DNA of 64,000 nt from assembly GCA_910574455.1 (NCBI GenBank), contig CAJSYZ010000001.1:1031961-1095960 (forward strand), read 5' to 3'. The notes beneath the pieces were generated by a model, which saw only the letters and a list, made by a program, of their open reading frames with translations, did no database searches and had not been told where the DNA came from. Each line of letters begins with the position of its first letter. Position 1 is the stretch's first letter. The translations under genes were made by a program, and so were the position numbers. This DNA comes from Trichaptum fuscoviolaceum (lineage: Eukaryota > Basidiomycota > Agaricomycetes > Hymenochaetales > Trichaptaceae). Shown here in pieces: positions 22,964 to 53,405 of this stretch.

Positions 22964-22972
22964 ATTAGTAAT
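22964..22972. repeat. Putative left 9-bp target-site duplication
   Basis: ATTAGTAAT lies directly outside the left arm and is repeated at 53397-53405 directly outside the right arm. The word is nearly palindromic (8 of 9), so part of the match could be terminal inverted repeat instead. Confidence 0.5.
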
Positions 22973-24005
22973 CGAAAATAGGAGTCTGCCCTGAACATAT
23001 TGAGGTCACCCGTTCGGGATTGAGGTCAACCTTTTAAAGTAATCGAAGTCAACCCAAGGAAGTAATCGAAGTCAACCTTCTTATTTAGTAGGAAGTAATT
23101 GATATCAACCTAAAATAGTATTCCAAGTCAACCTCTTTTTAAATATGCGTCAACCTTTTTCAAAATAGAAGTCAACCATTTTCGAATTAGATATCAGCCA
23201 GTTTAAAAATAGAGGTCAGCCGTTTTCAAAATGGAAGTCAACATTTCGAAGTTTTCCATATCAACCCGCCAAAGTAAAGCAAATCAAACTGAAAGTATTT
23301 GAATCCAACCGATCCAAGTAATGTAACTCATCCTGTAAGTAATGGGAGCCAGCCCAACAGAGTATCACAAATCAGCCTGTCAAAAATACAAGTCACCCAG
23401 AAAGTATTCAATATCAACCCGTCTGAGTATTGCAAGGCCACCTGCAATAAATATAAGTCAGCCTGAAAGAATTCTAAAACAGCCTAAAAGAATTTGAAAC
23501 CAGCCGAAACATATATTGCAAGTCAGCATTCAAGATATGTAAGTCAGCCTGAAAGTATTTGAAGTCAACCTTGACGAGTAATGCAAACTACCCCGTCAGA
23601 AATACTGGTCAGCCCAAAAGTAATGTAAGTCAACCTTTGAGTATTTCAACACACCCAGAAAGTATTTGTTATCAACCTGACTAAGTAATAGTAGTCCGCC
23701 TACAAGAAATATAAGTCAACCCAAAAGTATTCGAAGTCAGCCTTGTAAAGTAAACCAAGTCAGCCTGCAAGAATTGCAAGTCACCCAGAAAGTATTCGGA
23801 ACCAGCCCAGGCAAGTAATGCAAGTCAACCTGCAAGTATGCGAAGTCACCCTGAAAGTATTCGGAACCAACCGAGGCAAGTAATGCAAGTCAACCTGCAA
23901 GAATTCGAAGTCAACCTTGACAGAACAACTAGGACAGAATATGCTATATCTCCTCAACCACTGATCCGTTTTCTACGAAACTATCACGATTCGAAAGCTC
24001 TCTGA
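22973..24005. repeat. Left arm: tandem GTCAACC-centred array
   Basis: About 35-40 degenerate copies of a 20-25-bp unit of the type AGTATTCGAAGTCAACCTG, all in one direction, fill 22990-23930. The array is followed by about 75 bp of unique sequence that is also found, inverted, at the inner edge of the right arm. No coding potential. Confidence 0.85.
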
Positions 24006-24357
24006 AAGTAGAATATTGTAACGGATACGCAAAACGGCGTTTGGAGAAAATTTCAATTGCGCGTGGATGAAGAGTTGTTGACCACGTATACTGTAATTAT
24101 TGCGAGGCAGACTTGCTGCGACTTCATGCAGCCTTATTCTCTCTGTCTGAAATGACACAAACAATGGTATCTGCATTCAACCAAGACATGTACAATCACT
24201 TACTCATATGATCGACTGCAACGTTTATAGGGACACATCCTAAGTCGAGTACTTTGGCACTGAGCATTTCTGTAAGAAGTGACATTGAGTCTTCTGCTTG
24301 CACAAGGAATTAACACAAATCTACTCCAACGCATTAATACATACCATGTATGGTATC

Positions 24358-24684
24358 TCAGAGAACAACCTTTTCGACAGTCGCCCATAATGCTCCTCCG
24401 CCGGCGTATGCAAGCTTCTTGTCAGCATCAATGCGTACGCCATTTAGGTGACTGATGATGCACCAGAAGCACTATGACCACTACCATGAACGGCAAGAGG
24501 GATATTTTCGGAAGAGGCTTACTTGATAGCGGTCGCAATGTCTTCGTCATTCTGGAAGGCAATGATCCTTGCCCTCTTGACCGAGCAGGCTGACCACTGT
24601 GATATGGCTTGCTCGTATTCAGGGTGCTCAGAGGTGATGATATCCCCATGAAACTGCTGTTTAAAGGTCTCGAAAGAAGACATG
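24358..24684 (-). pseudogene. FAD-linked oxidoreductase, N-terminal fragment
   Basis: The ATG at 24684 opens a berberine-bridge/FAD_binding_4-type N-terminus: MSSFETFKQQF, YEQAISQWSACSVKRARIIA and FQNDEDIATAIK. After a stop, other frames give PLAVHGSGHSASGASSV, which holds the His of the usual covalent-FAD motif, and NGVRIDADKKLAYAGGGALW. The family would then continue for 300 or more residues, but the sequence stops at EKVVL. Frame breaks plus truncation make this a dead fragment. It lies just inside the left arm of the large element. Confidence 0.7.
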
Positions 24685-25990
24685 CTGTCAGACGATAGCG
24701 CGGGAAGAAGCCGAGGGAGGCACTGGTCCTTGACGAAGAGGTGTAACAGATCTTGCGACAGCTTAAATAGTTCCAGGCCAAGATCCAAAACACAGCAGTT
24801 ATTCATGACCATTGCCCCGGAAAGCTTGGGTCCGCGATCAAGCTCCAGGGTGGTGATTTCAAACGAGGCGGCAAAAAGTGGACTTTCTGAGCCCTTCTAA
24901 CCCGCTTTTCCCGAATGGCGAGAGCATTGAGGGTAAGAGTAGTTACACGGAACAGCATTGTCAGGCAATCCTACGCAGACATTTGTGCCACTGGAATGGA
25001 AAGAAAGTTGAAGGCATTTGTTGCGCATGCACAAAATTTGCCCAAAGCGAGAAGATGGACGACGGGTTTTGTGTTTGTTTGTTAAAACTCTGCCGAAAAT
25101 CATGCTAGGGCATAGGTAACCACTGCAATATTTATACTCATGTTCCACAAGGGCCATAAAAGGATCATTGGTTCTCTCTGCTAAATATCACTGTTCCTAT
25201 GGCGATGAAAAGAGGAGGTCGACACATCACAGTTGGAAATAAGTGCATTAAATAGCATAATATTACACATGGTCATAAAGGCGACAGGTCTGTCCTACAT
25301 TCCTCTTATAAAACATCATTTTACAATCACTGAACTGTTATGAAATAGTAACATCAACGTCGTATCATGATAAGAATTATAAACATGAGCTACTTAGCTT
25401 CATCTGACCTATAGTTGCCACACTCAAAGATGTAGCATGATTGCGGCTTTATAACGGGTTATCATTGACGGACATACATCATGATGTGTGTTGGATCACT
25501 TACCCTTTTGGAAACGGAGCACTTGAATTAGAGCCACCCTTGATATTGCATCACAACGTGTGTTGGAATAGCTACCTATCTTGCATCGGAGCATTAGATG
25601 GTCCGAGTAACTGAATCACAGCAGCGTATCCAATGAAAGCTGATAGGGGTGATAGCTTCTAATGAGTTCGCCGCGCACTTGTAAGCCGTGTATTCACTCA
25701 CGAATAGACTTCCTTCATCCAAACAGTCACAAGGTCCCTCCCTTCACCCGTCACGAACTCCCATGGTGTCCTGGTATAAGAACTGAGCCTGGTACGTTCG
25801 TCGGAGTGAAGATGGCACTTACCATAGAGGCCCATAAGGTGGTCGCGGCCAGTGGGGACGGAGATGTGGGTGTAGTCTGCTTGTTCCATTAAGGTGGTAG
25901 CAGACCCTTGAAGTGGACAGGGCATTCCACATACGCACTTGCGAGGCCTCAACCTTAAGAAAAGGGGATGAGTCCTGAGGCAAGGAATGA
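24685..25990. other. Non-coding interior of the large element
   Basis: No gene supported. A loose duplication of about 90 bp is visible at 25480-25600 (GTGTGTTGGA...GGAGCA...TTAGA in both halves). Open frames near 25700-25900 belong to low-complexity sequence leading into the minisatellite. Confidence 0.45.
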
Positions 25991-26004
25991 ACACTGTCCG
26001 CAGA

Positions 26005-26335
26005 TGTGTCCGAGGTGGCCGCAGCCATGTTGAGGGAAAAGACGCCTTCCGCAGAGGCGTCCGGGTGGCCGCAGCCATGTTGAGGGAAAGACGCATTCCG
26101 CAGAGGCGTCCGGGAGGCCGCAGCCAGAGGAAGGGGAAGAACACGTTCCGCAGACATGTTCGGTGGCCGCAGCCAGAGGAAGGGGAAGAACACGTTCCGC
26201 AGACATGTTCGGGTGGCCGCAGCCAGAGGAAGGGGAAGAACACGTTCCGCAGACATGTTCGGGTGGCCGCAGCCAGAGGAAGGGGAAGAACACGTTCCGC
26301 AGACATGTTCGGGTGGCCGCAGCCAGAGGAAGGGG
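26005..26335. repeat. Minisatellite, about 7 copies of a 50-bp unit
   Basis: GTGGCCGCAGCC starts recur at about 26012, 26066, 26116, 26163, 26214, 26264 and 26314. The last four units are nearly identical, the first three divergent. Because 50 is not a multiple of 3, the array opens long frames on both strands; these are not taken as genes. Confidence 0.88.
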
Positions 26336-26398
26336 AAGAGCACGAGATAAACATGAGACTCAACACGGGACATTGCGCTTCGCACAGTGTCAGTTGGG

Positions 26399-27175
26399 TG
26401 TCACGACGTGACATATCCCTCTTCCCCTTTGGGGCGCATCCCGGGGATTTCCCTGAATCCCGCCGGGATATCTTGCCCTCGGGAAATATCCCGGGGCATT
26501 CCCTTCGGGATCTCTCCCTTTCGGGATTTATCCCGGGTTCTTACCTTATGGACTTTCCCGAAGTCTCTCATCCTCTTGTCTTTCCTCATGTTCCCCACCT
26601 GTTTCCCTCATTCCTCCTTCATTACTCCGATTTACCAATGCCCCTACACATGTTCTGTCACTCCTTTGTTATTCCTTTCCAATTCCTGTCTTAGTCTTAC
26701 ATGTGTGAGGCCTCATTGCCTACCGCATTGCCCACATCCCCGATTTTCCCACGCTTCCGGAATCCCGGTATCTCTGTCCTTTCTCTATATAAACCCATAG
26801 CATTTGTACATAGATACCTTGACTCGAATATCATAAGTCTTTGGGCCTAGCTAGTGGCCAGGCTTTCGAGATCCACCATGCCTTTGTCTTGTCTCCAAAT
26901 CTAGCTTGCTTGTTGTCTAGTGCTCTAGACTATCTTTTGTGTTTGACCCGGACGTCTCGAGCCTTGCGCGGGAGCACCCCGAAGTCCCCTCGTCGTCGGT
27001 CACCCTTGTCAGATGCCGGAAGCCCCGGATCCTGGTTATACTCGTCTCTCGTCTCTATTCTCTTTGCTTCGCTCTTAGATTCGATCTCGCAGGACATCAT
27101 GTCTCGATAGGCATGATCTCATTTGTTTACAATAGACAAGACACCACAAGGCATGCATCGGGTCCAAGCCTGACA
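26399..27175 (+). repeat. 5' LTR
   Basis: 777 bp, TG...CA ends. It contains palindromic CCCGGG-rich blocks near 26445-26540 and a TATA box. The 89- and 82-codon frames present in both LTRs are not genes. Confidence 0.93.
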
Positions 27176-27208
27176 GTATATTCGAGTCCTGACAGTATAT
27201 TCGAGTCC
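27171..27208. repeat. 19-bp tandem duplication at the LTR/primer-site junction
   Basis: TGACAGTATATTCGAGTCC occurs twice in a row, starting in the last bases of the 5' LTR. It covers the place where the primer binding site should be. TTCGAGTCC resembles a tRNA T-arm. Confidence 0.7.
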
Positions 27209-27566
27209 TCCTACTGCGAGTTCGAATTGCTGACTCCCTGCGGGGAGCATACCTTCTAGATGAATATTTTCTTTACTTTATCTTCCCATTAATCATACAT
27301 TTTACTTCAAATTCTAATATCCAAGTTCCTGCGTGAATGCGCGCAGTTCATTCGATGTAGCGCATATGCGCTTTCACCCCATCCAAATCCGGCCATCACT
27401 TTCTCCTCACTCCCCCACCATCGATTTCAAGAACACCCCCTTCCTCCCTTTTAAACCCCAACAAAAACTTCTGAAAACCTCGTTTTACCCCTCCTCTTTA
27501 AACTTCTGAACTTTTTCCCCCGCAATTCTCACTATTTCCGGCCCCGCAACATGCGCAAGATGACGA

Positions 27567-27589
27567 CCCCCCCCCCCCCCCCCCCCCCC
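27567..27589. repeat. Poly-C tract, 23 bp
   Basis: Uninterrupted run of C inside the LTR element; its length may be unreliable in the assembly. Confidence 0.9.
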
Positions 27590-28049
27590 ATACTTTGACA
27601 ACTCTCACCTCGAAATCCATGTCCTCCGCATCAACAATCCACGCGATCTGCTTGAGACATTCCCACTGGACTCTGGATGCTGCTGGGAATGGTTTCTGAG
27701 GACTGGAAGAACTACTTGATATTCAGATCGAGAATTGCGGTGGTGCGTTCTCGTCAAGGAGGTACAGGCAACGCCTCAGACGCTTTGGAAACAGCAGCCT
27801 CCGGGCTGTCTGAATTCATTGGCAATGACAGGACCGCTCTTCGCGAGTCGTCCTTGTCTGTCGCAGAATCATTTGTCAACGCAGAGTCGATTGCCCACCT
27901 CTGGTTTTCCGACCGAACCCCCTGCGTGCTTGCGCACGCATCCCATCAACATCTGCGTCTTCGCCACTTCTTGAAGGCCCGGGATAAGAGGGGAGATAGT
28001 AAACCCCTATCTCTCACATTTGACATCCCGAAAATCATTCTCGCGACTT

Positions 28050-28570
28050 ACTCTGGTCGCCGCCGTCTCCTGGTTGAAGTTTTTCGACTCGAGCAATGCC
28101 TGCGGCACTACTGGAACCCCCGCTAGCCCGCGCGGACGACTGGACCAAACAATCGCTGGCGCGCTGCGCGACTTCTCCAATGTCTCCTGGTTGGAGCTCG
28201 CAAACTCGAGCGATGCCTACGGCGGTATTGCCATCCCCGCTGGCCCGCACGGACGACTGGAGCAAACAATCGGCGACGGGTCGCCTCCTTCGCCTTTAAC
28301 CACGATTGGCACGGTCATGTATTGCCTTCAAAGCGTCTGCGCTTGCAATCTACGGGCGCAAACCCAATTTCCGCAGTTCTCGCCGTCCTGACACGTCACA
28401 CGGACGATTGGAGCAAACAATTGGAGGTCACGAGCGGTGTCGCCAACCTCGCCCTCATCCACGTCGCCCGACTACATGTATTGCCTTCAGAGCGTCTGCG
28501 CTTTCGATTGACGGCGCGCACGCCTCACACCGACGGACGATTGGAGCAAACAATCTGCAACGTTGGGCGG
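28050..28570. repeat. Internal tandem repeats of the LTR element
   Basis: Four blocks of CGGACGAYTGGASCAAACAATC occur near 28132, 28248, 28400 and 28540. The first two sit in a duplicated segment (GTCTCCTGGTTG ... CGAGCRATGCCT). The last two sit in another (ACATGTATTGCCTTCARAGC). No open gag-like frame runs through them. Confidence 0.7.
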
Positions 28571-29848
28571 ACTGCAGATACAAAGGTTGAAGCTTGCCAA
28601 TCGGACCGACAACTATGGCACTGCTGGATGAAGTTGCACCCAGTGCCATAGTGGACCTTTGCTTATGGATGCCTTTCCAACACATCCACTGATTGGATCC
28701 CGCTCTAACTTGGAGGATATGTTGGTGGAACTGGGTAGATTGGTTGGGCGAAGTTTCAGGGCTATCGGTGCAGTACTTGTCGCTCTACATCACTTTTAGT
28801 GCTCACCATATTGGCATTGAGTCACACCCTCATTCCTCAACATCCATCGATTCGTTCCCGATCTCCTTGCGCACACACGTTGTTCTACACTAGGACACAC
28901 ACCTCACGAAGTTTCGAATGTGTCGGAGACGAATTGGGGCTTTCAGACTGTTATCAGTGCCAGACCTCACCCTCACCATACATTTTCGCCTCTCTTCGAC
29001 GATTGCGAAGCAACTACTGGGCCGCTTTCTGCGCGCAAGACACCATTCTCTTCTGCCAGTCGCACTCTTTCCATACGTGCAACAATCGCGCCGATCCGCT
29101 GAGTTTTGAGCTCACGGCGGTCTTGTTGGCTCCACACTGTCACCACCACACCTTCCCCCTTTTGGCCGAAAAGATCGCCCATAACTTGGGATCGATTCGC
29201 GCCTTCACAAAATCAAAACCACCCCCATCTGCGTCTGCTTCCGGGCTTTCCTATCGCCCAACTCCCGCCTGAATCGACGCAAAACTCATCAATCGCCGGC
29301 AACATCTTCGGGACAACATCCATGTCATTACCGGGCCACTGCTGTCGAAACCCTGAACCATAACTCGGGCTTGATTCAAGCCTTCACACAACTAAGGGCA
29401 CCTTCATCTTCATCTTCTCGGGGGCTTCCCTATTGCCCAATGTTCACTCGAATCGGCGCAAAACTCGTCGATCGCTGGCAATAACTTCGAGACAGCCGGG
29501 TTAGCAGCAACATTTGATAGCTCGCCGCCTGTACACCCCATTCTTGGCTGCACTCTCAACTGTTGTTGCTCACTCTGGCTCTTCCTTTGACTTGCCCATT
29601 TCTCTTATCCACGGAGGATATTTGCTTGCGCATAGCAGAATTGCGCAATCTAAGAAAACACACCCTTTCCATGGTATCTGTGGCCTTTCCTCTTGGACAA
29701 CAACCAGCTCCGTCATATGTTGGGGAACATCTGACATATCTTCCCTCATCACAACATTGGTCCACAACGCTGTACTCCCGTTGTCTTTGCACATGCGCAG
29801 ACGGGACCTTGGCCTCGACGGGGCTCGGCCGTTAAGGGGGGGCAACAC

Positions 29849-30625
29849 TGTCACGACGTGACATATCCCTCTTCCCCTTTGGGGCGCATCCCGGGGATTT
29901 CCCTGAATCCCGCCGGGATATCTTGCCCTCGGGAAATATCCCGGGGCATTCCCTTCGGGATCTCTCCCTTTCGGGATTTATCCCGGGTTCTTACCTTATG
30001 GACTTTCCCGAAGTCTCTCATCCTCTTGTCTTTCCTCATGTTCCCCACCTGTTTCCCTCATTCCTCCTTCATTACTCCGATTTACCAATGCCCCTACACA
30101 TGTTCTGTCACTCCTTTGTTATTCCTTTCCAATTCCTGTCTTAGTCTTACATGTGTGAGGCCTCATTGCCTACCGCATTGCCCACATCCCCGATTTTCCC
30201 ACGCTTCCGGAATCCCGGTATCTCTGTCCTTTCTCTATATAAACCCATAGCATTTGTACATAGATACCTTGACTCGAATATCATAAGTCTTTGGGCCTAG
30301 CTAGTGGCCAGGCTTTCGAGATCCACCATGCCTTTGTCTTGTCTCCAAATCTAGCTTGCTTGTTGTCTAGTGCTCTAGACTATCTTTTGTGTTTGACCCG
30401 GACGTCTCGAGCCTTGCGCGGGAGCACCCCGAAGTCCCCTCGTCGTCGGTCACCCTTGTCAGATGCCGGAAGCCCCGGATCCTGGTTATACTCGTCTCTC
30501 GTCTCTATTCTCTTTGCTTCGCTCTTAGATTCGATCTCGCAGGACATCATGTCTCGATAGGCATGATCTCATTTGTTTACAATAGACAAGACACCACAAG
30601 GCATGCATCGGGTCCAAGCCTGACA
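29849..30625 (+). repeat. 3' LTR
   Basis: 777 bp, the same as the 5' LTR by eye. It is preceded by the polypurine tract and followed by target duplication TTGGG. Confidence 0.93.
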
Positions 30626-31084
30626 TTGGGTTCATAAGGAAAAGAAGAAGGTGATAAGGAAATGCCCAACGCGAGGAACAAATGATGAAGAGACATTGAA
30701 GGCTGTACATTGCGCTTCGCGCAGTGCATGCTAGTGGCGAGGTGGTGATGAAGGAAAGCTTGAGTGAAAAACGGAACTTAGGCAAAAATCTCGAACGCCG
30801 TGCTTACATAATTCATGCAACGGCGTGGCAATTTTCGCCTACAGTTCAACTTAACTTTTGCTTCCGTGTCTTCACATCGGACAGCAAATTTGCTTCCGCT
30901 ATCTCGATCTATTACTTGTTATTGCCATCTCTCACTATTATTGTCATACAGCAGAAGTCTGTATCCTTTCCTTCTTCATCTTCATGGACACCTGGATCCG
31001 GAGCCTAGCTCGAAGAGCTTGGCGCAAGGATGACCAGTACTGACGTCCATGTCGTTCTTGCCCTTTCCCTTAGCTTCTCTTCCA

Positions 31085-33076
31085 ATGGCCCCCGCAAGAA
31101 GTGGTGGACGGGGTCGCGGAGGTCGTGGAGGTGGCAATGGGGCTAAGAGGGGTGGAGGAACACGATCGTCAGTGGGTGGGGATGCACCACGAAGGCCATG
31201 TAAGCTATTGTATCTTGTGTCGGCATATTTTCGTCCCACTTACCCTCTGTGCTTACAGTGATTACTGGACATGTACCACGAAGGTCATGTGAGCTACCGT
31301 ATTTTGTGTCGGCTTATTTTCGTCCCATTTACCTTCTGTGCTTACAGTGATTACTGGAGGAAAGGCGCCTGCAATGCTGATTACGCCTTCCGATGACATA
31401 GGTGTGTGTATCATATAACTCTTATCTTCGTCCTCTCATCTGATTGTCTCTTGAAGAAATATCCACTGGAAGCGATGGCGGCCATGTGGCGCAAAACTCC
31501 GCACCATTCCATCCACTACCTCCCAAGCCCGAACTCAATATGGAGAGGCAAAGCACGCTGGATCCGGCAGCTATGGAGATTGACTTCGGTATGGATAGCG
31601 GACAGGTGAGCGACTGTTTCACAGGGTACAAGACGTTTCGGCTTATGTCAATTCTACTTTTCTTTTATTAACGAAGACAGATGATGTGAGTATTGGTTGA
31701 CATATTCCAAGCACTTATTAACCTCCTGTCTGTAGCATTGCTGCTGGTGTCACGATGGCGGTGAACTCTATCCCTGTACCAAAAACAGTTGCCCACTCGC
31801 CATGTGTCCGACTGTGTTATGGTCGAGGAGACGAAAAAGCAGAACTTCAGCTGTCCCTCGTGCTGGAACAAACATGTGAACACGGTGTATACGCCCGGTA
31901 ACGCGCCATGCAAATATCCAGTGGGTTCTGCAAATTCAGTATAAAGATGTCTTGTTGATCAATTTCCGTAGTGGGAAATTCGCCGTCCCTGCTCCGTTCG
32001 TGATTACAGATCAGGAGTGAACACTTCTCCTTTACTCATCATTAATCTCACACTATCTTCTGTGGAGCATCTCGAAATGCGCAGAATCTTCTATCACATA
32101 TTGAAGTCTTCGTATCAACAGAAATCAGAAGATGTGAGTTTTTCCGTTTGTGTTGCAACCGACTCGTCTTTATTTTGATTGATAGCTGCGCTATGTGCAT
32201 ATTACTTTTGACAATGAAAACACCGATCTGGAGGAAAAACGGGAAAAGGTGCTTTCGGAAGTCGATTCCGACATCAGTTACCGTCGCTTCAAGAGGGTTC
32301 TCGTCTTCATCAACTCTCACACAAACCCGGAAGGGCTGATTTACCACACCGTCCATGGTGCCACTGACTTTGATGAAGTAAGCAGCATGATCCCATTCGT
32401 GAATGGCCCTTCCTGACGTTTTTCAGTTCTTCAATTGGCTGATTTTACACGACCTTGAGAACTTTCTGTTCGAGCGTGAGACCACGTTGGTGTTAAACTG
32501 TTGTGGGTCTTATGTTAAGAGTCCCCTCCAGATGTCAAACATACACGATCTGACTGCACGGTGAGGGCCTAACTATCTGAGTTATATTCTTACCTCTAAC
32601 CTTCCTTCAATTCCAGCGGTATTGTGAAGAATATCATGTCTTTTGTTGCGGAAAAGTTTCAACCGAGCCTCGCCACGCATCTTGTGACGGAGACTCTCTA
32701 TGAGATTTTTATGTCCCGTAAATCTTTCGTCCATGCGTTGGAGAAGCATCTTGCTGGTAGTGATGTTGGGAGTCACGCTCACATCAACCTCTTCAGTGTC
32801 GATGGCTGGCGCACGTACATATGGGGTTCTGGAACCAGTCGTCCTTATGGCACCCTTCCGGACATTTCTTGCATCAAATGTGGATTGATTCTGCCATGGC
32901 GTAAGGATTTTGATGGAAAGAGTTCAAAGAACTCTTCAGGCACAGTGAATCTTCGATGCCGGCTATGCAAGTATCGGTACGGAACAGTGGTATGTCCTTC
33001 AGGACTCCAACCCATACATGAAAAGTCGGCGCAGAAGTGGTATTATCGTGTTATACCCAGGACTGGCACACCATGA
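31085..33076 (+). CDS. Element cargo gene: Gly/Arg-rich N-terminus, PHD-like zinc finger, possible caspase-like domain, C-terminal zinc ribbon
   Basis: The first exon (ATG 31085) encodes an RGG-type segment. A Pro-rich exon follows at 31460-31606. The exon at about 31735 reads CCWCHDGGELYPCTKNSCPL and then, one frame away, VEETKKQNFSCPSCW; the Cys/His spacing suits a PHD finger, with an apparent 1-bp frameshift at about 31807. Further exons (from 32185) give RVLVFINSHTNPEGLIYH and TLVLNCCGSYVKSPL, which could be the His and Cys of a clan CD (caspase/CHAT) dyad. The C-terminus has paired CxxC (CIKCGLILPW, LRCRLCKYRYGT). The family is not recognised and the protease idea is inference. The frameshift means the copy may be dead. 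Confidence 0.55.
31186..31363. repeat. 89-bp tandem duplication of an exon end plus intron
   Basis: Two copies, each ACCACGAAGGYCATG, then a GT...CTTACAG intron-like stretch, then TGATTACTGGA. Both keep donor and acceptor signals. Splicing both introns would stay in frame (LITGHVPRRSLITGG). Confidence 0.8.
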
Positions 33077-33594
33077 ATCACCTTCCTTGATGTCGCGGCA
33101 CAATGGAGCTTCTGGTCTCTCGTTCGTCTTACTCGTCAGTTTCGTTTCCCCGTTATTCATCGTTTCGGTCTGTTCTGCACTTTCATGTTATGGTGACTTC
33201 CGTATGACAGTGTTTGTATCAAAAGAAATGTGTGAATACGTTCCTTAATATCTTCATCTTCATCATTTAGGACACCACTCTACCCCAGTGTCATCTACGT
33301 TTTGAATAGTTATGTATGTACATAGAGTCTGCCGATGAAAAATGACTACCATCTTCGTTTTCTTTCTCTATTTAGAGTGCTAAATATCCTTATTCGTATG
33401 TTGACCAAGTACATGTTCTATATAAATAACATTTACTGATTATCACCCACGAGGCGAGCTGGGTATAGACTAAATTCGGTTGCGAAGAGGGGTAAAAGTG
33501 GTCCGATTTCTTATCTGCTACAGTACGTGGGCACTTCTCCTATCCTCAACCACATCCTGACTTCCAACCCCTTTCTAGGCTTTACTCGCATTCA

Positions 33595-41925: not shown

Positions 41926-41938
41926 ATTTGTCGCATCA

Positions 41939-44900
41939 GAAGCTGAAACGGCGAGACCGAAACGCAGGCAGCAACGCAATGCTTATGTTGTGCCAGAGAA
42001 CGAAAACGAGTCGGATGACGTACAATCATCGGAAGACTCGGAAGGGAAGAAAGGGAAGAAAAGGAAGAAAGGGAAGAAAGGGAAGACGATAATCGGAACA
42101 GAGAATATGAGGTGGAAAGGCCAACCCCCGAAAGATTCGAACATAGACAAGGACACTGAAAGCATTGAGGCATTCTTGATGGAAAAGACTGGGCCATTTC
42201 CTACGATACTGGGACCAGAGGAGAGAAAAAAGCTTAAGGAGAAAGAGACGGAAGTCGAGAGTGAGGATAATGATGACACTGGGAGAGACGTAGACATCTC
42301 TCAGGTAGATCATTTCAAGGCACTTGTCGAGCCCAAAGGTAAGCTAGAATGTAGTTGTGCAATGTTACACCTATTCATGGATTGATATGTTACAGGCGGA
42401 ACGAACATGAAAGGAGTGGAGGATCCAGACCGGGCAGGCAAGGAAGGAAAAGTTGATTCAGATCGGCAGAAGGAAGCCAGAGAGGATGGAAATGGATTCC
42501 AGAGAGGTATGTCGCAGATGATCCATATAAGGCACGCTTTCGTTGACTGACGCGGGTGATATGTAGTGAAACCGAGTGCCGGACGACCTGCAGCGACTAC
42601 TCCCTTGCACAACCGAAAGAAAGCCAGCGACAAAGATCTCTTAGACGATGTGGACTGTGGAAATTCGAAGAAACCTATGCACTCCAAGAAGCGAAAAGGA
42701 AAGGATAAAGTCGTCTTCAATCAGAAGCCCGGACCTCGACCCAAACCAAAGGGTAGTCTACTACCGGCAATGAACCCCGAGGATAGGAAAGAAGCAAAGA
42801 AGCTCATTGCAGAGTTTGCCAAAGTCAAGCAAGACAGTGACAAAAGAGAGGTACGAGGGGCAAAATGCCGTGTTGTGATCATGTGTCAATTAACTAACAT
42901 CTTTCTGTTTAGACATTGGAGACAGTCAACAATGATGTCGTCATCACACAGGGAGCATTCGACAATGAGGATTTGGCCATATCACAAGGCCGGTACCGGG
43001 ACTTATGGTCCAACCCAAATTACTTAATGCGCGAAGACGAATTAGACCACTGTATACATCCTATACTTCACGCCCTGTCGAGAACATGCCAACTTCGTAC
43101 AATTTTTGTTCCCCATAACCACTCATCATTTGCCACGCAGATCGACGCGGCGGATTGGTCGGTGGTAAATGACGAATTTCCGATAAAGCCCGATGGTTCA
43201 GTGAGTACAAAGACGTTGTTGGGTATGGATATCTCAAGCTGATGTTCTATACAGGATGCATTTCCTCGAGATGGTGCTCTGGCTCATTGTTGGTACCTAA
43301 GTACAGCCCAGACCCTCGAGAAGGCGGTCGTTTTTCATCACGATCAGCAACGCACCCATTGGATTATCTACTTTCACGACTATAGGAAACAGCAATTCAA
43401 GGCATTTGATTCAATGAATGTCGCCAACCGCACCAACGCACGTGGACCAAAGCTCATCACTAGTTTCTTCCACACTGTCAACGGTGCGCGACTGGAAAAG
43501 GTAAGTAGTCAATAGTCAATGCATGATCAGTAATTGCTCATGATTCACCTCACTCTGTTAATTAGCCTTTGGATGAACCTCTGATGAACTACCCATATGT
43601 GCCATTGGGTGTACAAGTTGATGGTAGTTCCTGCGGGTTCTGGGCAGCCACGATTGCCCTGCTGTTAGCGTTCTCCATCAATGTGGAAGCGAATTCCGTG
43701 AAGAGAAAACTGGTCGAGTTAGGACCTACTGGCATCAAGGAATTCTGGATCTCTGCCGCATCGTCCTTCCGTTCCAGTAAGACAGAAGGCCTAGATCGAC
43801 AAACTTTAGAGGCGTTCCTGTCTCAGTTCAAGGGGAAAGGCATGAAGAATGAATGGTCAAATAAGCTAGGTGCAAAAGAATGCGTAAGTGAAATCATTGA
43901 GACACTGGATTGTTCTCATTTCATGCATGTTAGGTTGCTATTCGACCCGATTATATAGATTGCATCCATTCCAAAGAGGATATGGATCCTTCAATGCATC
44001 CTAATGATACTCGCCTCGAATGTAAGCACTGACATGGATCCATAATATAGTTAATGATCTGATCTAACCGTGTTCCATCAGATCTTCATTCAGATCATGC
44101 GACAGCTATGCCTGAAGATGGACAAGAATATGATAAGACAGGAACCGGTCAGAATAAGCAAGATGGAGTGGATCTTAATGTTCAACCAGTAGCGATGGAG
44201 ATAGACGAAGAACAGGACAAAGACAAAGACAACGTTGCAGATGCAGAGGAAGGCGAAGGATATGAAGGCGAGGGAGAAGATGGCGATGCAGACGAAGGCG
44301 ATGCAGACGAAGGCAAGGGAGACGAAGGCAAGGGCGATGAAGGCGAAGGCGAAGGCGAAGGAGATGATGAAATTGGAACTGCTCCTAACAATGTCGATCG
44401 GAATGGTTCATCACTAGCTGCAGACGATGTTGCTACGCCAAGTCTTCCGGAAGTTCCTGCTGCAGGGGTTGTTGCTCAAAATGGAGAGTCTTTGGTGCCA
44501 GACGCGATGGATGTCGATGACATACCCAGTAGTGGGGCAAGTGAGTTAACTCCTGTCCCAGAGGAATCAGCAATGTGTTCGAGTGATGACCGCGCAACTC
44601 CTGTCCAAGACGAAGAAGATAAAACGTTACAGGAGGTGATAATGTCGTTGCAATGGACCATGGCATCTGCACGCCAGGAGAGGACTTTATTAAAGGCTGA
44701 GGTGAGTGCTCCCTGCCCTTTAATGTCCAGGATCACGAGCTAATGGATATACAGTACAAGCAGGACCTGGAATTGTTCCGCAAAGGACATGGTCTGGAAG
44801 CTGGGATGGCGGTGATAAAGAGAGAGCATCTGGAGCGCCTCCAGCCACCCAGTTGGTTTGACGACAATCTAGTAAATGCAGTGGTTCACGCAATTCAAAA

Positions 44901-45056
44901 ATCGTACGTGGACCAACACCTTGGCACTGCATTTGTGATTAACTTCCATCTTGTAGGACGAAGCGCCCCAAGGATGTTTTTATTGCACATACCTTCTTTC
45001 TCAACTCTATCAAAGGGAAGGCTGATCAACAACTTAAGAAGGATCCTCTGCTAATG
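41939..45056 (+). CDS. Ulp1-type protease region 1, acidic linker, and first half of Ulp1 region 2
   Basis: Exon frames continue from the transposase: a Lys/Glu-rich linker (GKKGKKRKKGKKGK) and DHFKALVEPK lead to a first C48 peptidase domain. Its His is in THWIIYFHDYRKQQ, its Asp in FKAFDSM and its Gln...Cys in QVDGSSCGFW (near 43610-43640). After it, a Glu/Gly/Asp repeat tract (44230-44370) and a Thr/Glu-rich linker lead to a second C48 domain. That domain starts PSWFDDNLVNAVVHAIQ, then TKRPKDVFIAHTFFLNSIKG and KKDPLLM at 45056, where the donor GTGAGT begins. The second half of this domain is found only at 49618, beyond a 4.5-kb insertion. Ulp1 domains are known in several plant MULEs; two in one protein is unusual. 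Confidence 0.65.
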
Positions 45057-45120
45057 GTGAGTTGCACTTTACTATGAAGAGACTTATGAGCTGTGTACAT
45101 TTGACAACGATCACCACAGG

Positions 45121-45181
45121 TCATAGGGTGCCCCCAATTCTGTCAGGACAGCACACCGGATACAAGTCCCGATTTGGAAAT
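45121..45181 (+). repeat. Left 61-bp terminal inverted repeat
   Basis: Identical, inverted, to 49529-49589. Confidence 0.95.
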
Positions 45182-45242
45182 ATTTCATTGTATCGGATAC
45201 AAATTACCGCCACACTACTCACGTCACGTAGATATGGACACC

Positions 45243-45330
45243 AAAAAATGCACTTATCGAGAGTCGAACCCATTACTTACACGAAACTCTAGTCAATTAG
45301 CCACAATACACCAACTCAGCTATCCAGACA
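45243..45330 (-). repeat. tRNA-like Pol III cassette (degenerate tRNA or SINE head)
   Basis: On the minus strand there is an A box (TAGCTGAGTTGG), a B box (GGGTTCGACTC) about 50 bp further, and then TTTTTT. The acceptor and D stems do not pair, so it is not a working tRNA; a tRNA-derived SINE head or pseudo-tRNA fits better. Confidence 0.4.
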
Positions 45331-45420
45331 TTATAAAATATTGTACTCATAGTTTATATAGCGTTTGCGTACGCTACATTCGAATAAAAAAAATTTTTTT
45401 TTTCTAATGTTGCTCAGGAC

Positions 45421-48045
45421 CTAGAGCTTCAGACCAAGCTCCGTGATGCACATCACTATACCTGTTCGGTCGTCTAACATATTCACAAGGAGTATTGGCC
45501 GCGTTGCGAACGGCTGCATCTTCGAAAGCACGCTTTCAATGGATGACTGGCTTATCTGAGAGGTGATTGTGAAGAATTTGCTTCCCTTGCCTAGCTCGCT
45601 CTCAACCCACATTGTGCCATTTATCAGCGACACCAGACACTTCGATATTGATAGACCAAGACCAGTACCACCGTATTCCTAGATTCATAGACGTTAGCGA
45701 CTACGAGCCTAAATTAATTATTCAAAAAGAACTCACTCGAGTGGTCGATCCATGCGCTTGCGCAAACGTGTTGAAGATCAATTTTAGCCTGTCCTTCGCA
45801 ATACCGATACCCGTATCTGTGCCGCGGAACTCCAGCTTCACCGTCAAGCCCTCAATACCGACAAGAGGGTAGGACAGCGCAATGTGTCGCTTCGGCGTGA
45901 CCTTGCTCGGAGTGAACTTGATGGCGTTCCCGACAAGGTTCGTGATAACCTGGCGCAGACGGAATGAATCACCGATGGGCTGCGGGAATGACGGGGTCGA
46001 CGTCGTATGTGAGGTCGAGGTGATTTTGCGATGCTCGTACAACAAGAGTCTTGAGGAAACCGAAGACCGTATGGCTCAATGAGTACGAAACCTGCTCCAT
46101 TGTCATCCTGCCTGCTTCGAATGTACAGATGAATGGAAATATCAACAAATGCCAAAGAAGAATACCGCATAATCAGCTTACTCTTCGAAATACCCAAAAT
46201 ATCATCAATAATCAATAGCAGACATCGCGCCAAACTATGCACCAGCAGGAGACTCTTGCGCTGACTTCTAACAAGTCGCTATCGAGCGTCAGCTCAGTCA
46301 TTTTCATTGGTATTCGAATTGCAAAAGACATGTTCGCCAGGAACTCCGACTTCGAGCGATCGGCAAGTTCGACAGCTTCGCGAGCGGCGGTGTTCTTCTG
46401 GATCGACTCGCGCAAATTGTGCACCATCTGATTGATTTGGGTCTTCAGGGAGTCCATTTCACCCGAGGCTTCGACGGTGATGAAACGCGTGAAGTCGCCG
46501 TCCATGGCTGCAGCACTGATGTGCGCGAAACCACGCACTTGAGTCGTCAAGTTTTCAGCCATGGTGTTCACAGCCATTCTTATCGGTGCGAGTTAAAGAC
46601 AGAGCAGAATAATAGTGAGATGAACATACGTGATTTCTTGCCATGTACCCTGGACGTTTCCGACTTCTGCCTGAGCACCAAGTTTGCCTTCCGCTCCGAC
46701 TTCTCGCACGACCTTGGTTACCTCCGCAGCGAAGAGGGCAAGCTGGTCAATCATGCCATTGATGGTGCTTACCAAGTCCAGTATCTCGCCCTGCACGGAC
46801 ACGCCCGTCATCTTCAGCGTCAAGTCACCACGAGCGACAGCCGTAGTTACAACAGCGATCGTGCGCACTTGTATGGTCAACTGTGACAAGGAAAATGTTA
46901 GACCACTTCTTCAGAGACACTCCCAGCAACAGATACGCACATTTGTAGCCATAGCATTCACGTTATCTGTGAGATCCTTCCACGTACCACCCACATTATT
47001 CACCCTTGCTTGGCCGCCAAGTCTTCCTTCTGTACCGACTTCACGGGCCAATCGAGTTACTTCATCGGCGAACACACACAAAGACTCAGTCATGCCGTTA
47101 ACAGATTCCTTGAGGTCAAGAATCTCTCCACGGACGTCGACGGTAATCTTCTTCGTCAAGTCACCACCCGCGACAGTCTTGGTCACCTCAGTGATCGAGC
47201 GCACCTGGTCCGTCAGATTCATGGCCATCAAGTTGACATTGTCAGTCAGAATCTGTAGTGCGAAGAATCCGTTAGTATGTCAATCCAGCACGTATACATC
47301 GCTGCATTAAGTCAATGGCAAAGGAAATACACACCTTCCACATGCCCTGCACATCTGCGACGACAGCCGTCCACCAAGCTTACCGTCCATACCGACCTCG
47401 ATGGATATCCTGATGACTTCGTTTGCCAAAGTCGAGAATTGTGCTACCATGGAGTTGATAGTCATCTTCAAGTCGAGCATCTCGCCCTGCACATTAGACG
47501 TCGACAAACTTGCTCAAATTTCCACTTGCTACGGCCTTCGTGACCTCCGAGATTGAGCACACTTGGTCCAAAAGATTTGAAGCCATTTTCTTTGCAGAAA
47601 GTTGACAGATTAGTTGCAAGTCTTAGATAATAGCAAATGTATACTGGAACTTACATTAACATTTCTCGTCACATCTGCCCAAGTTTTTTGGACGCCTTCA
47701 ACCCGAGCCTGTCCACCGAGTATGCCTTGAGTTCCGACTTCCAAAGCGACACGCATAACTTCGCTCGCAAACGTGCTCGATTGGTCCACCAAGGAGTTCA
47801 GTTTCCTTCAAAGTGGCCATCTTGCCTTCAACTTGTATCTCGACCTTCTGGGTCAAGTCACCCTTCTTGACTACGTCGATGAGACCATAGATGTGCGCGA
47901 GTTGGATGACGGTGACCAAACTCACTCGAAGTCTTAGAGACTGCCGGTCATCCGGGGTGCTTGTCCGTTATGCGTCTGTGCTCTGAATGTTAGTAAATAT
48001 CATATAAAGTCCGAGCTATAATACACACCTTTTTAGGATCTGCCA
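45421..48045 (-). pseudogene. Group III (Nik1/Os-1-type) histidine kinase, broken copy
   Basis: Four to five HAMP repeats in the family's typical order are readable: [53 protein letters not shown] and [19 protein letters not shown]. HisKA and HATPase blocks follow ([39 protein letters not shown]), then the start of a receiver. Frames shift at least three times: after KMATLKET (2 bp lost), at SKFVDV (1 bp gained) and at GKLGG (1 bp lost). The phospho-acceptor motif SHEIRTPMNG is replaced by SFAIRIPMK, so the His is gone. The receiver stops after about 40 residues. Introns are kept, so it is a DNA-level copy rather than a retrocopy. It lies wholly inside the 61-bp inverted repeats. Confidence 0.88.
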
Positions 48046-48059
48046 TGGTGCACAGAATG

Positions 48060-49528
48060 CCCGTCGGAATGGCATACATACCGCGGACGGACTTGTGCGT
48101 TTGTCAAAGATCGTGGGAATACTAACGCGGTCTTGTGACTAACGCGGTCTTGTGACTGACCAAACAATGACGCGTCAGTCATGTGAAAAGGTTATGGTAG
48201 GCTTAAGACTTCTAAATATGGCAATCCCGACAAGACCGAAGCCTGCCCGCAATATGGTACGAAAAATTAACACTTAAGGCTTCGTAAAGAAGCGCTAAAG
48301 ACTTCCCTTTTCCCCCCTCGCCCCTCAACATTGGGGTACAGCAGCCTTCGGGCTTCGTGTATCCCAATGGCACAGCAGGACTACTCTTCGCGAGTCGTCT
48401 TCGTCTGTCGCATCACCAAGTGGGCACACACCTTTCCTGAACACCTCCTTTCGCATCTCTTTGCTCTTTACTTCTTGTTCTCTCGGCCTGAACCAACTCA
48501 GCCAAGTCTCTTCGTCAAACGGATGTCATGAGTCGCGCGTGCTCCGAGGTTTTGGTGAGTCTGTTGGTCGATACAGCAGTTCAATATCTCTCAGTTGACT
48601 CTCCTTTTTTGCACTTGCCTTCGGTCCCTTTACCTTGCGCTCTCGAATTCGCCAACGCCACCCTTCTCAACCCACGATCTACACTTGTTCTCCCTCCTGT
48701 GGCCGTACGCGTCCGTCTTTCGTCGCTCGCTGCATCCTCCTTTCCAATCAAATCCAGGCTCTCGAATACGGTCAGTACTCCTTCAGTCCTTTTTATTTCT
48801 ACAAATAACTTAATCTTCTCCCTCCCTTTTCCAATACGCATGTCATCCACAGCATCATCGTCGATCAGTTGCATCTGTGCACTCATCAAGATGATTACCG
48901 CCAAAGGACAAAGGTATGTTTTCATTGTCACTCGGTTCGTTCAGAAGCTGAAGAGGACTTTTTCCTTTATTCTGTGTGTAGACATACTCCTTCGTATTTA
49001 GCTGAAAAGTAAGTATTTATGTGTTTCCTGCAACTCGTCTAAAGGCTGATAATATATAATGTCTGTTTTTTATGAGTCTGTGCATGCTCGAGCAGATGTG
49101 TTCCTGCTGATAGGCAGTGCTACGAGAGCAACATGTAAAATTTGTAAGTCAGCTGTACAAAGTTGGTAATGTCGAACTGCTAATGATCAGCTTCTAGTTG
49201 TTTACTTAACACATGAGTTGACATGAGTTGTATCAGTTTGATTGTGTAAGTAATTTTTTGTACAACTCAAGTTATAGTTTACTGACTTAACATTTATTAC
49301 TTTCTGTGCACTCATTTGACTACGTATGTTGTACTTGAATTGGATACCTGTAATAAAATCGGATACTTGTATTTAAATTGGATACTGACTTTATCTGATG
49401 CTAACTTAAATCTGATACCTATTTGGATCTGATACCTGAATTAAATCCGATACTTGTATTTAAATCTAATAATAATATAAATATTGAACCCAACCAACAC
49501 CTGTGTGCCCAAATTGAGTGTGAGAACA
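48060..49528. other. Non-coding interior of the inverted-repeat element
   Basis: No recognised gene. A short tandem duplication (ACGCGGTCTTGTGACT, near 48125-48158) is present. A block of about 30 bp near 48383-48412 resembles one inside the LTR element near 27835. GATACTTGTATTTAAAT-like repeats lie near the right end. Confidence 0.5.
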
Positions 49529-49589
49529 ATTTCCAAATCGGGACTTGTATCCGGTGTGCTGTCCTGACAGAATTGGGGGCACCCTATGA
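49529..49589 (-). repeat. Right 61-bp terminal inverted repeat
   Basis: Exact reverse complement of 45121-45181. Confidence 0.95.
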
Positions 49590-49617
49590 ACTGAGGTGCC
49601 TGCTGACAAATCGATAG

Positions 49618-50194
49618 ATTTCATTATCTGACATGTCATCTCTCGTTCTCCCAATGCATGTCAATAATGACCACTGGATTGTCGCTTGTATCGTTTTCGA
49701 AAAAACAACTATTGAGGTTTACGACAGTCTTTCATCAGCAAAAGCGTCTGACAAGACATACTCCACGTATATTAACGTGGGTGGCACATATTCCATTGCA
49801 TTACACACTGAATGAAAGACTTCCCGGTTCTATAGCAAATTATTTCCTGGTTGGAACGCAAGTCGAGAGAAGAAAAGCAGAAGTTTGTACGCTCAAAATG
49901 GAAAACAAAGATGCAAGACAATGTAAGCTGAAACTATACCCTACACAACTATCCCTTGCTAACGAGGCAATCAAGGTTCCTCGTCAGACAAACGGACATG
50001 ATTGCGGTGCATTCTCGTGCATATTCATGATTTGCTTGGTGTTTTTCGGGTCTCTGCAGGCTCAACCAAGCAAAAGTCTCATCAAGCTCATTGAGGCCGA
50101 CTCAGAAAGCGTACGCTTGGGTTTACTTTTCCGGATAATCCAGAAGGCAGGGTCTATGGTGAGTATTGCAAAGAGAGGAAGGAAAAGATACTAG
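49618..50194 (+). CDS. Second half of Ulp1-type protease region 2 (separated exon group)
   Basis: After acceptor CGATAG at 49612-49617, the frame reads SLSDMSSLVLPMHVNNDHW (catalytic His before Trp), IVACIVFEKTTIEVYDSLSS (Asp) and, after a further intron near 49770, KVPRQTNGHDCGAFSCIFMI (Gln and Cys). It joins in phase with KKDPLLM at 45056. It therefore completes the C48 domain that the inverted-repeat element splits. The C-terminus near 50160-50194 is uncertain because a GTGAGT donor follows AGSM. With a 4.5-kb insertion in a fungal intron, a full-length product is unlikely. Confidence 0.62.
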
Positions 50195-50407
50195 TAGCCG
50201 ACACTCCTAATGATCTACTTGTATCCGTAATTCATTGTGATGAGTGCTTAAGTCTAATTTCATTCCTTTTCACTCAGTCCTTGGAGGAAGTGTTCATTTT
50301 TCACATATGATGCAATGCAAAAAGGTGAGAGTTTCTGTAGGGAATGTGAGGGTATACTATTTACACAATTTAAAAAGGTCTGAGTGGAATAGTCCATCTA
50401 CTACCCA

Positions 50408-50859
50408 CTAACGGGGGTGATCAATCTTTGCCAAAAACTCCGCACAGACACTTGCAAGCTTCTCCGCCTCCCTCTTGGCCTCCCATTCCCTCTCCTCCTG
50501 CCCATCCGTCGTGACTTCCCGTACCGCAATGACGGTGTACTCGGCAATGACTACCTCGAGTACCATTTTTATGCTGGCCAATTGCTCAGCAACGACGTGA
50601 GGATTGCGCGGTCATTCTATCAAAATGTTAGACTCAAATTATGTGTTTATGGACGGAGAAGACATACCCTCAAGGAGCATCTTCCCGGCCCAATCCTCTG
50701 GGAAACAAGCTCGAAAAAGCGCGACCACGCGGTCGAGCAGTCTCGCAAAAAGCCTGTAAGTGCATGCAATATTTACGAATCAGAATTTTTCTAATGAAAA
50801 TCAGTGGTTGTACGTAGCACGTACCGTCTCAATCTGCAGGGAAGTTTGCCGTAACGCAT
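50408..50859 (-). pseudogene. Small unknown gene, probably frameshifted
   Basis: The ATG at 50859 gives MRYGKLPCRLR and, across an intron, RLFARLLDRVVALFRACFPE and DWAGKMLLE. After a second GTATGT...TAG stretch, the next coding block (VVAEQLASIKMVLEVVIAEY, then EEREWEAKREAEKLASVC, ending AKIDHPR) is out of phase. It looks like a short helical protein with one frame break. The family is unknown. Confidence 0.45.
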
Positions 50860-52244
50860 GGTGAGACAACAATTGGGGATGGGGAAAGAGAGGTGAAAAC
50901 AGCAGGCCGTAAATTGCCGACGGAGACGGAAGCAAATGATGCTACTCGGCACCGGTAAGCAAGCTTCCGTACATCCGATGATCACGTGGTGCGTGCGAAC
51001 TGAAAAGATAATACTATACAGCATATGACCCTTGTGGGATGCTTACGTTTGCGTATTACATGTAGCGGCTTACTCAGTTCACGAGCTTGATTTGTCTAAG
51101 TCATCTAATGGACTTAAAAAAAAACTTATACAACGCAGTATGTGGTATTCATTTCTATCTGCATGTTCCAGTGGCTTACATATATTGGACCTAGGTAACC
51201 TATCTGATGGACAATGGTATAACCTGGTAACTGCATTCAATTCTTATATTTCCTTTCATGATATTCATGTCAAGATGACCATGGCAGATTTCTATTCAGA
51301 TACAGAGCTTCCTTTGTTCCTTGTGAAATACCTGATGACAGATGTCATTGGAAGGACTTCGAAGAAGTACCACGACTCGTGACAAGCGGGAGCTCGTGTA
51401 CTTCACGCGTGAAACTGCGTTGCATTTCTTCACCATCGACCACAACAACAAAGACGACTCCGCGCCTCAAGACAGCGGCGACGCACAATGAAGACGCGAA
51501 TATTCGTAAGAACGCAAGATGAAGACCCATTTATCAATGCCTAGCGGACGCTACCCGCTCCAACAAAGCCATTCGGACGAGGCCTTATTTGCGCCACCCA
51601 ACTTACTGCTCGAGGCCTTGCGGACGCTACCAAGCAGAGCCACCTGCTATATCAAAGCTCATTGGTGTGTAACAGAAGTAAGGTGAGTATTGCAATTGAA
51701 TGTCTATTTACATGGGTGACACTATGTATGGAGACCTTCGGTCGGTTTAGTTTTCCCTGCGGGTTTGTCAAGGTTTCTCCTTGTCAGAGGCTGCGTCTCC
51801 CTTCGGTCATGGGCTTGACTCGTTGGTCCCTCGGCAACCCAAGACGCTCTAGAGCAAGGACCTTTTCAGCGAGCTCCAGGGTGGCTTCTCCCACAATAAC
51901 CTGCTAGCCCAATTTTCCACTCCTGCATCCTTCGAGGAAGCCTTTCTCTTTAGATTATCGACGACGGACAGGAGCGAGCGGGAGCGCAGGAACACCTTCT
52001 CAGGCTGTCGTGCCTATGGTGTGACACCTACATGGTATTCTGGGTAAGGCTGGATGAAGGCAAGTCAACTGTGTTCTCATTGGTCAAGGCTCGCAACGAC
52101 AAAACTGGACATTTGTCATCTTTTACCTGTCCAAGGCTCTTAGAGACTTTGGGAACTAGACATCTATAAATTATCTAGTGTTATATGTTCGTCTCACTCA
52201 CCATTGAAATCAAGATATTCTTCTTCCAATGGTTTCCGGGCCTC
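50860..52244. other. Non-coding interior near the right arm
   Basis: Mixed AT-rich and GC-rich patches. A plus-strand frame of 116 codons (51032-51382) and a minus-strand coding-like patch (51860-52010) have no recognised motif; I do not call them genes. Confidence 0.4.
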
Positions 52245-52440
52245 CCTTCTCAAAGCAAATTAAGGTCTTGTTCTGGTCCTCGCGCAGTTCGGCAAGAAGA
52301 AGCAAATAATTTCATTGATTTCACTGATAACCAGACCTTCATTGCCTATAGAAGTAGAGACCATGACTTTGAATTCGCCTGCCTTGAATTTCTGAATTGC
52401 CCGAATGAGATGATCAGCACCTGAGAGTACCAAAGACTTC
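52245..52440 (-). pseudogene. FANCM/Mph1-type helicase fragment
   Basis: The minus strand reads IRAIQKFKAGEFKVMVSTSI, then GNEGLVISEINEIICF. This resembles the second-domain motif FKxGEFNVxVSTSIGEEGLDI of Mph1/FANCM-like helicases. Only this 60-residue piece is present, with key substitutions (EEGLDI to NEGLVI) and no motif VI. It lies just inside the right arm. Confidence 0.5.
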
Positions 52441-52614
52441 AATACAAACCAATATCAAGACCTTGCTTTCACCTTCTATTGGTTCCCCTCTCATGATTGC
52501 AGCAGCAGCGGAGAGTGACTGTATAAGAGGGCTATAAGACACAGAAATGAAAAAAATCAAATCTACCAAATGACTGATTCGCCTCGCTCTATTTGCAAGA
52601 GCTGTGTCAAATCT

Positions 52615-53396
52615 CCTTCAAATAAGCTTTCGAATCGTGGTAGTTTCACACTGAACGGACCAGTAATTGGAGAGTTATAGCATATTCTGTCTTGGCTGTT
52701 CTGGTAAGGTTGACTTCGAATACTTTCAGGGTAACTTATATTCTTGTAGGTTGAGTTACATTACTTGCCTGGGCTGACTTCGAATACTTTCTGGGTGACT
52801 TGAAATTATTGCAGGTTGACTTGCATTACTTTTCAAGGCTGACTTCAAATACTTTCTGGGTGACTTCGCATACTTGCAGGTTGCCTTGCATTACTTTGGT
52901 GGGCTGACTTCGAATACTTTCTGGGTGACTTGAAATTATTGCAGGCTGACTTGCATTACTTTTCGAGGCTGACTTCGAATACTTTTGGGTTGCCTTATAT
53001 TTCATGCTGGTTGACTTGGATTACTTTTCGAGGCTGGTTTCAATTACTTTCATGGTGTCTTATATTACTTTGCTTGGTTGTCTTCCATTTCTTTTAGGCC
53101 ATCCTATATTTCTTCCCGAGGTTGATGTCGAATACATACCCCGGTTGACTTGCATATTATGAAAGGCTGACTTACAATTCTAATTAAGTTGATTCCGAAT
53201 TCTGACAAATGTTGACTTCCATTTCAAAATAGGCTGATTCCGAAATCTTACAAATGATGACTTCGAATTCTGAAATTGTTGACTTAGATTTCAGAAAGGT
53301 TGAAATACATTAAATACAGGTTGTCTTCATTTCTCACGGTTGACCCCATTTATGGTGGGTTGACTTCATTACATTTAGGGCAGACTCCCATTTTGC
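52615..53396. repeat. Right arm: GGTTGAC-centred array (inverted relative to the left arm)
   Basis: About 30 degenerate copies of GGTTGACTTCGAATACTTTC-like units. The inner edge (52600-52690) is homologous in reverse to 23920-24005. The outer end, AGGGCAGACTCCCATTTTGC, mirrors the left outer end. Confidence 0.85.
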
Positions 53397-53405
53397 ATTA
53401 GTAAT
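53397..53405. repeat. Putative right 9-bp target-site duplication
   Basis: ATTAGTAAT, the same orientation as at 22964-22972. Confidence 0.5.

Follow-up and report, generated by a model that had tools for sequence, protein, structure and literature searches.

Evidence for a 22-kb, multi-gene Mutator-like transposon family in Trichaptum fuscoviolaceum, with one copy enlarged by two nested insertions

Results

The window analysed here is a 64,000-nucleotide stretch of the basidiomycete Trichaptum fuscoviolaceum (contig CAJSYZ010000001.1, positions 1,031,961–1,095,960 of the forward strand; all coordinates below without a contig name are those of the window). It contains an inserted element of 30,424 bp (22973..53396, + strand), approximately 8.7 kb of which is nested foreign DNA. 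We concluded, with a probability of roughly 0.93, that this element belongs to a 22-kb DNA transposon family of the Mutator superfamily (Mutator-like elements, MULEs), that the family has six full-length copies in the genome, and that the copy in the window was enlarged by two later insertions. A preliminary description, made from the letters of the stretch, had already placed the element in the Mutator superfamily, and this assignment was borne out by the matched arms, the 9-bp duplications, the MULE transposase and the additional genes. By the features tested, the element is a member of the MULE superfamily, its SWIM domain being unproven, and by its size and gene set it is a new variant.

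Arms and target site duplications

The element is bordered by the same 9-bp word, ATTAGTAAT, at 22964–22972 on the left and at 53397–53405 on the right (no strand assigned), which confirmed the identical flanking words of the preliminary description and represents the target site duplication. The left terminus starts at 22973 with CGAAAATAGGAGTCTGCCCT, and the right terminus, read inward on the − strand from its outermost base at 53396, is GCAAAATGGGAGTCTGCCCT. The arms are about 700–1,000 bp long. The left arm (22973..24010, + strand) and the inverted right arm (52620..53396, − strand) each consist of the terminus, a one-directional GTCARCC array and an inner block common to both. Comparison of one arm with the other in reversed orientation, which had been suggested beforehand, showed 566 identical bases out of 787 aligned, and together with the one-way motif counts this supported the earlier claim of inverted arms with common ends, a GTCAACC-type array and a shared inner block. 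The motif was counted 18 times in the left arm and 12 times in the right arm read inward, always in the forward direction, and the 28.7 kb between the arms contained only one forward and two reverse occurrences, thus it is almost confined to the arms. The chance level, determined from 500 dinucleotide shuffles per arm, was a mean of 0.26 (left) and 0.12 (right) forward motifs with a maximum of two, and the arm arrays are far above it. A looser form of the motif, RYCAVCC, occurred 32 times in the left and 18 times in the right arm. The array unit, approximately CCTGAAAGTAWTCGAAGTCARCC, is repeated with a spacing of 21–23 bp (about two helical turns) and with a 65-bp higher-order step.

Copies in the genome

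The genome (59.1 Mb, 12 contigs) was searched with the arm, the right terminus and the transposase core, each search scoring the best candidates only. Six full-length copies were found including that of the window. As had been proposed, the arm served as a query for other copies and identified five, with left arms of about 99% identity; all six left arms were accompanied by a right arm approximately 22–30 kb away. The right terminus gave six matches at up to three mismatches (a backward control pattern gave none), and the transposase core detected the same six loci, so that pieces of the transposase are present in every copy; no diverged relatives of the core were found in the genome beyond these loci. 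A perfect 9-bp duplication flanks all six copies and its sequence differs from site to site, those of the five other copies being ATCATAAAT, TTGCATATT, ATTTTTAAT, AACTTTTCT and AAGCTTTAT. The targets are AT-rich (46 of the 54 bases over the six sites are A or T). The preliminary description had named independent small arms and other copies lacking a 9-bp duplication as observations that would contradict it; the former were looked for in this genome with the queries used and neither solitary arms nor fragments or small derivatives were found, and the latter were not seen in any of the five further copies.

A single substitution, besides a few indels, separates copies cp5a and cp5b over 22,121 aligned bases, yet they lie at different sites with different duplications, thus the element likely moved recently. 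There were 18 substitutions in 21,804 bases between cp4 and cp5c. The window copy differs by 0.9–1.0% from the others and carries 128 private substitutions (ungapped two-state sites), more than any other copy.

The native unit and the nested insertions

The five other copies are 21,812, 21,905, 21,928, 22,126 and 22,129 bp long, and they lack two stretches, 8.7 kb together, which are present in the window copy. The native unit is therefore 21.8–22.1 kb, and the window copy measures 30.4 kb because two other mobile elements, foreign to the transposon, inserted later into a copy of about 22 kb. Consequently, the 30.4 kb given in the preliminary description as the unit size had to be abandoned. 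Its claim of several extra genes stood insofar as additional genes are indeed present; however, a histidine-kinase stretch and a long terminal repeat (LTR) element had to be removed from the element's own gene content, since they belong to these foreign 8.7 kb.

The first insertion (26399..30625, no strand) is a non-coding LTR element; its two direct repeats of 777 bp (TGTCACGA...GCCTGACA) are identical, and a 5-bp duplication, TTGGG, lies on both sides. The identity of the two LTRs indicates that it is very recent. Pfam recognized nothing in its interior at E ≤ 0.01. Related stretches and pieces of LTR size are numerous in the genome. The second insertion (45107..49603, no strand) is an inverted-repeat element with fragments of the HAMP and HATPase_c domains of a histidine kinase; it has 70-bp inverted repeats (97%) near its ends and the 5-bp duplication TGACA on both sides, and it splits the Ulp1/SENP-like protease gene of the window copy. 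Related stretches of 1.3–2.7 kb are present at dozens of genomic loci. These many related loci suggest that the insertion belongs to a separate, successful family that carries genes.

Transposase

The MULE transposase gene (38856..41881, + strand) consists of about 10 exons with the motifs GLD, MIDK, CQFH and NNYIE, its N-terminus and C-terminal splicing being uncertain, and in the window copy it is frameshifted within the exon 40792–41037. The comparison with Pfam MULE, which the preliminary description had recommended, gave 29.8 bits with PF10551, above the cut-off of 27.6, and 12 of 14 members matched this model. Unspliced frames of the 32–42 kb region gave nothing relevant in Pfam. In the alignment with relatives, the first D and the E were present in 14 of 14 rows, and the second D as well as the CxxH that follows it in 10 of 14; the remaining rows had gaps (three at the second D, four each at the C and the H) or, in one case, another residue at the second D. 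The D-D-E and CxxH signatures claimed earlier thus stood. The predicted fold of a transposase relative was closest to ISCth4, which is in line with the fold of IS256/Mutator transposases.

ORF A and ORF B

Two open reading frames (ORFs) precede the transposase in the same position in all six copies. ORF A (31074..33078, + strand) has several exons and is frameshifted in the window copy; one homologue was found. A PHD-like zinc finger, an H/C caspase-like stretch and then a zinc ribbon were recognized in it by eye. A caspase-like or PHD identity of ORF A was rejected, as the pattern was visible by eye only and had no Pfam match. ORF B (33496..36390, + strand) comprises an 872-aa open frame (33496–36111) and a predicted exon (36128–36390). 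At least 22 homologues, from sources labelled lgn or ena, were found in the protein collection, where the best 7,997 candidates by common words were scored; ORF B represents a conserved family. It had no match in Pfam and no sequence match to the PDB at E ≤ 1, and its predicted fold (mean predicted local distance difference test score, pLDDT, 57) had no PDB match at E ≤ 0.001.

Relatives of ORF A and ORF B (48–54% and 61% identical) also adjoin at C4:4.93 Mb, where the transposase profile gave no match over 27 kb (C4:4917501-4944500). Near-identical stretches of this unit are present at C6 (1.50 Mb) and C12 (0.92 Mb), and further pairs were found among the genome matches at C5:5.20, C4:4.35 and C2:6.00 Mb. 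Since such pairs occur elsewhere with no detected transposase, they form a module that is not tied to the MULE transposase. Some ORF B relatives are unpaired, such as those at C4:1.47 and C4:2.37 Mb, near which ORF A had no match. Concerning the ends of the C4/C6/C12 unit, the right breakpoint lies inside an open frame and no inverted repeat was found. An integrase-like frame with weak helix-turn-helix and integrase-core Pfam matches, below the cut-off, was observed near this type of unit. Distant ORF B relatives (22–43% identity) were noticed at C12:10143, C12:40688, C12:128071, C3:26944 and C7:5419890; four of these loci are no more than 130 kb away from the start of their contig and three received the same score, so that a subtelomeric gene family is possible.

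SUMO protease and other features

The split protease gene is represented by an acidic linker with the N-terminal part (44082..45106, + strand) and by the catalytic part (49604..50195, + strand), which matched Peptidase_C48 (E 4.8e-12) and SENP1 (E 1.7e-11); its identity as an Ulp1/SENP1-like SUMO protease gene is well supported by these sequence matches. The transposase region is continued by a basic linker and a weak C48-like domain (41940..43883, + strand). This first C48-like domain had a weak pairwise match (E 0.004) to the second protease, and it had no Pfam support and no meaningful PDB support.

At 24369..25101 (− strand) the element holds a captured piece of a FAD-linked oxidase-like gene of the host (FAD_binding_4 E 7.7e-5, which does not reach the curated cut-off). 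It is 82–88% identical, piecewise, to tandem FAD-linked oxidase-like genes at C7:1724686-1728620, and its longest piece (662 columns) is 85% identical to one gene of this pair, which on the basis of the alignment is its likely source. In the translation, a stop codon interrupts every one of the five further copies; it is in frame in four of them and follows a frame change in cp12. The captured DNA is a dead passenger fragment that encodes no enzyme. The FAD-oxidase gene model predicted here was discarded, since a stop lies hidden within its predicted intron.

Two possible small genes, both low-confidence models on the − strand, lie at 37300..37920, where the sequence is confined to the six copies, and at 50400..50960. 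The element also has a minisatellite of about 50 bp (25984..26398, no strand) with overlapping matches offset by approximately 50 bp. The segment 51347–51993, present in all six copies, resembles a repeat found at about 35 other genomic places, mostly with 77–90% identity, and some of these places are near contig ends.

Selection on the coding frames

The coding frames are under purifying selection. The pooled variants among the six copies, which come from related copies and therefore are not fully independent, comprised 24 synonymous and 27 nonsynonymous changes (ratio of nonsynonymous to synonymous polymorphism, pN/pS, 0.33; Fisher p 1.2e-4). ORF B contributed 7 synonymous and 11 nonsynonymous variants (pN/pS 0.47); the corresponding counts were 7 and 9 for the main exons of the transposase, 1 and 0 for another piece of it, and 9 and 7 for the first C48-like region (pN/pS 0.22 for 41940..43883). 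In the control, shifted frames of ORF B and the transposase gave pN/pS values of 0.86–1.68. Variable sites were fewer in coding (52/5,529) than in intergenic sequence (80/5,270). The transposase exons are without frame-changing indels in three of the six copies and ORF B is open in three, both being intact in one copy; some of the single-base indels may be assembly errors.

Discussion

In the proposed mechanism, the element's own DDE transposase would bind the long arms and cut the element out, and its reinsertion at an AT-rich site by a staggered cut would generate the 9-bp duplication. We infer that the family moves by cut-and-paste and is autonomous. The one-directional 21–23-bp arrays are putative docking sites for the transposase or an element-encoded helper, and the SUMO protease and the ORF A/ORF B pair may help transposition or counter silencing.

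Several observations weigh against this interpretation. In the assembly, at least one of the examined frames is interrupted in each copy, and the only one with both the transposase and ORF B intact has an indel in ORF A. The window copy itself is unlikely to be autonomous because its transposase and ORF A are frameshifted and its protease gene is split. The diversity of introns (4/558 sites) is not above that of the coding sequence. The SWIM-like signature, also part of the earlier transposase claim, was seen by eye only (CPCARF..CEH at 41.8 kb, where the splicing is uncertain), and Pfam SWIM had no match at E ≤ 1 in the transposase. Confidence in the fold model of the transposase relative is modest (mean pLDDT 64), and Foldseek returned no match for it at E ≤ 0.001. 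Finally, the joined flanks of the six copies matched only their own sites in this genome plus one weak 110-base stretch, thus no empty site was recovered.

Because one contig carries two near-identical copies at a distance of about 100 kb, the copies might be regarded as segmental duplications; however, no match was found between copies in the flanks compared (~2 kb per side) and every site has its own 9-bp duplication. The related idea that separate small arms were paired by chance is opposed by the result that no solitary arm was found in the genome with the queries used, and the probability of either explanation is negligible. An affiliation with the KDZ (Kyakuja-Dileera-Zisupton) transposons of basidiomycetes appears very unlikely. 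The large size of a fungal DNA transposon, the DDE transposase, the SWIM-like motif and the C48 protease would fit it, but MULE was the sole Pfam transposase match at E ≤ 1. Among the 14 members, of which 12 matched MULE, there was no KDZ match at E ≤ 0.1, which would count against KDZ provided that Pfam includes a KDZ model. Moreover, the duplication is 9 bp in six of six copies in contrast to the 8 bp of Zisupton (PMC12730594).

Two further alternatives concern parts of the element within the Mutator-type transposon. It is possible, though doubtful, that the arm arrays are chiefly bound by a VANC-like anti-silencing protein which the element itself encodes (perhaps ORF A or ORF B), rather than by the transposase. 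The dense one-directional arrays resemble the VANC21 arrays of Arabidopsis VANDAL MULEs (PMC5735166), and the Ulp1 domains recorded in related plant MULEs as well as the PHD-like finger seen by eye in ORF A point in the same direction; on the other hand, the VANC21 motifs occupy introns and the region upstream of the transposase gene (PMC5735166), unlike the nearly arm-confined motif found here. The other alternative, in which ORF A and ORF B constitute an independent mobile module of two genes that inserted into an ancestor of this MULE, seems rather unlikely. It would explain why the pair adjoins at C4:4.93 Mb within 27 kb in which a MULE transposase was not detected, as well as the near-identical units of this type at C6 and C12 and the ORF B relatives near some contig ends; nevertheless, the pair has the same place in all six copies and ORF B is constrained between them.

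The MULE family described here shares 9-bp duplications, long inverted arms, a DDE transposase with PF10551 and CxxH, and additional ORFs with the MULE/MuDR superfamily, where target site duplications are 8–11 bp (PMC6446971), and it differs from the published MULEs compared in its 22-kb size. An arthropod survey gives 1.4–10.0 kb for 322 complete MULEs (PMC13359780), and the Pack-MULEs of a 2004 study are reported to stay at or below 7 kb (PMC6431247). For the terminal inverted repeats (TIRs) of MULEs, one survey states 14–500 bp in its text, while the longest in its table measure 640 bp (PMC6446971), and since those of arthropod MULEs reach 1,193 bp or more in the arthropod survey (PMC13359780), long arms alone are not unique. 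In plant VANDAL/KI-MULEs, Ulp1 domains and one-directional arrays bound by VANC anti-silencing proteins are reported (PMC13317346, PMC2528002, PMC5735166). These elements are the best precedents for the accessory parts: both groups have an Ulp1 domain inside a MULE and, in VANDALs, also dense one-directional arrays and extra ORFs, whereas they are described there as non-TIR MULEs, unlike the present element with its long arrayed arms, fungal host and ORF A/ORF B pair. Like Pack-MULEs, the element carries a decayed host gene fragment that aligns to its source at the DNA level, but it has its own transposase and other genes. It resembles the Starships of Pezizomycotina as a large multi-gene fungal mobile element; however, it carries a DDE transposase and is flanked by 9-bp duplications, whereas Starships use a tyrosine recombinase, and it is much smaller than the largest Starships, for which up to about 700 kb is reported. 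A literature search restricted to titles and abstract openings, with most subscription journals outside its coverage, found no description of a basidiomycete MULE of such size.

In the broadest conception, basidiomycetes would own a class of giant multi-gene Mutator-DDE transposons, intact 22-kb units that capture host DNA, dock on about 30–50 directional motifs and use an exchangeable ORF A/ORF B helper shared with other mobile families, as a DDE-based parallel to Starships with VANC-like anti-silencing; such a generalization is speculative and, at present, unlikely to hold as a whole. The six copies nevertheless indicate that a 22-kb multi-gene Mutator-type element can spread as full-length copies, well beyond the published MULE sizes compared. 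The family offers a tractable system for studying DDE enzymes with large cargo and the role of the iterated motif arrays in the arms, as well as the question why SUMO proteases recur in plant MULEs and in a fungal one. The ORF A/ORF B module, which a second multi-copy family also has, offers a defined pair of proteins that may be considered for anti-silencing or transposition-helper roles.

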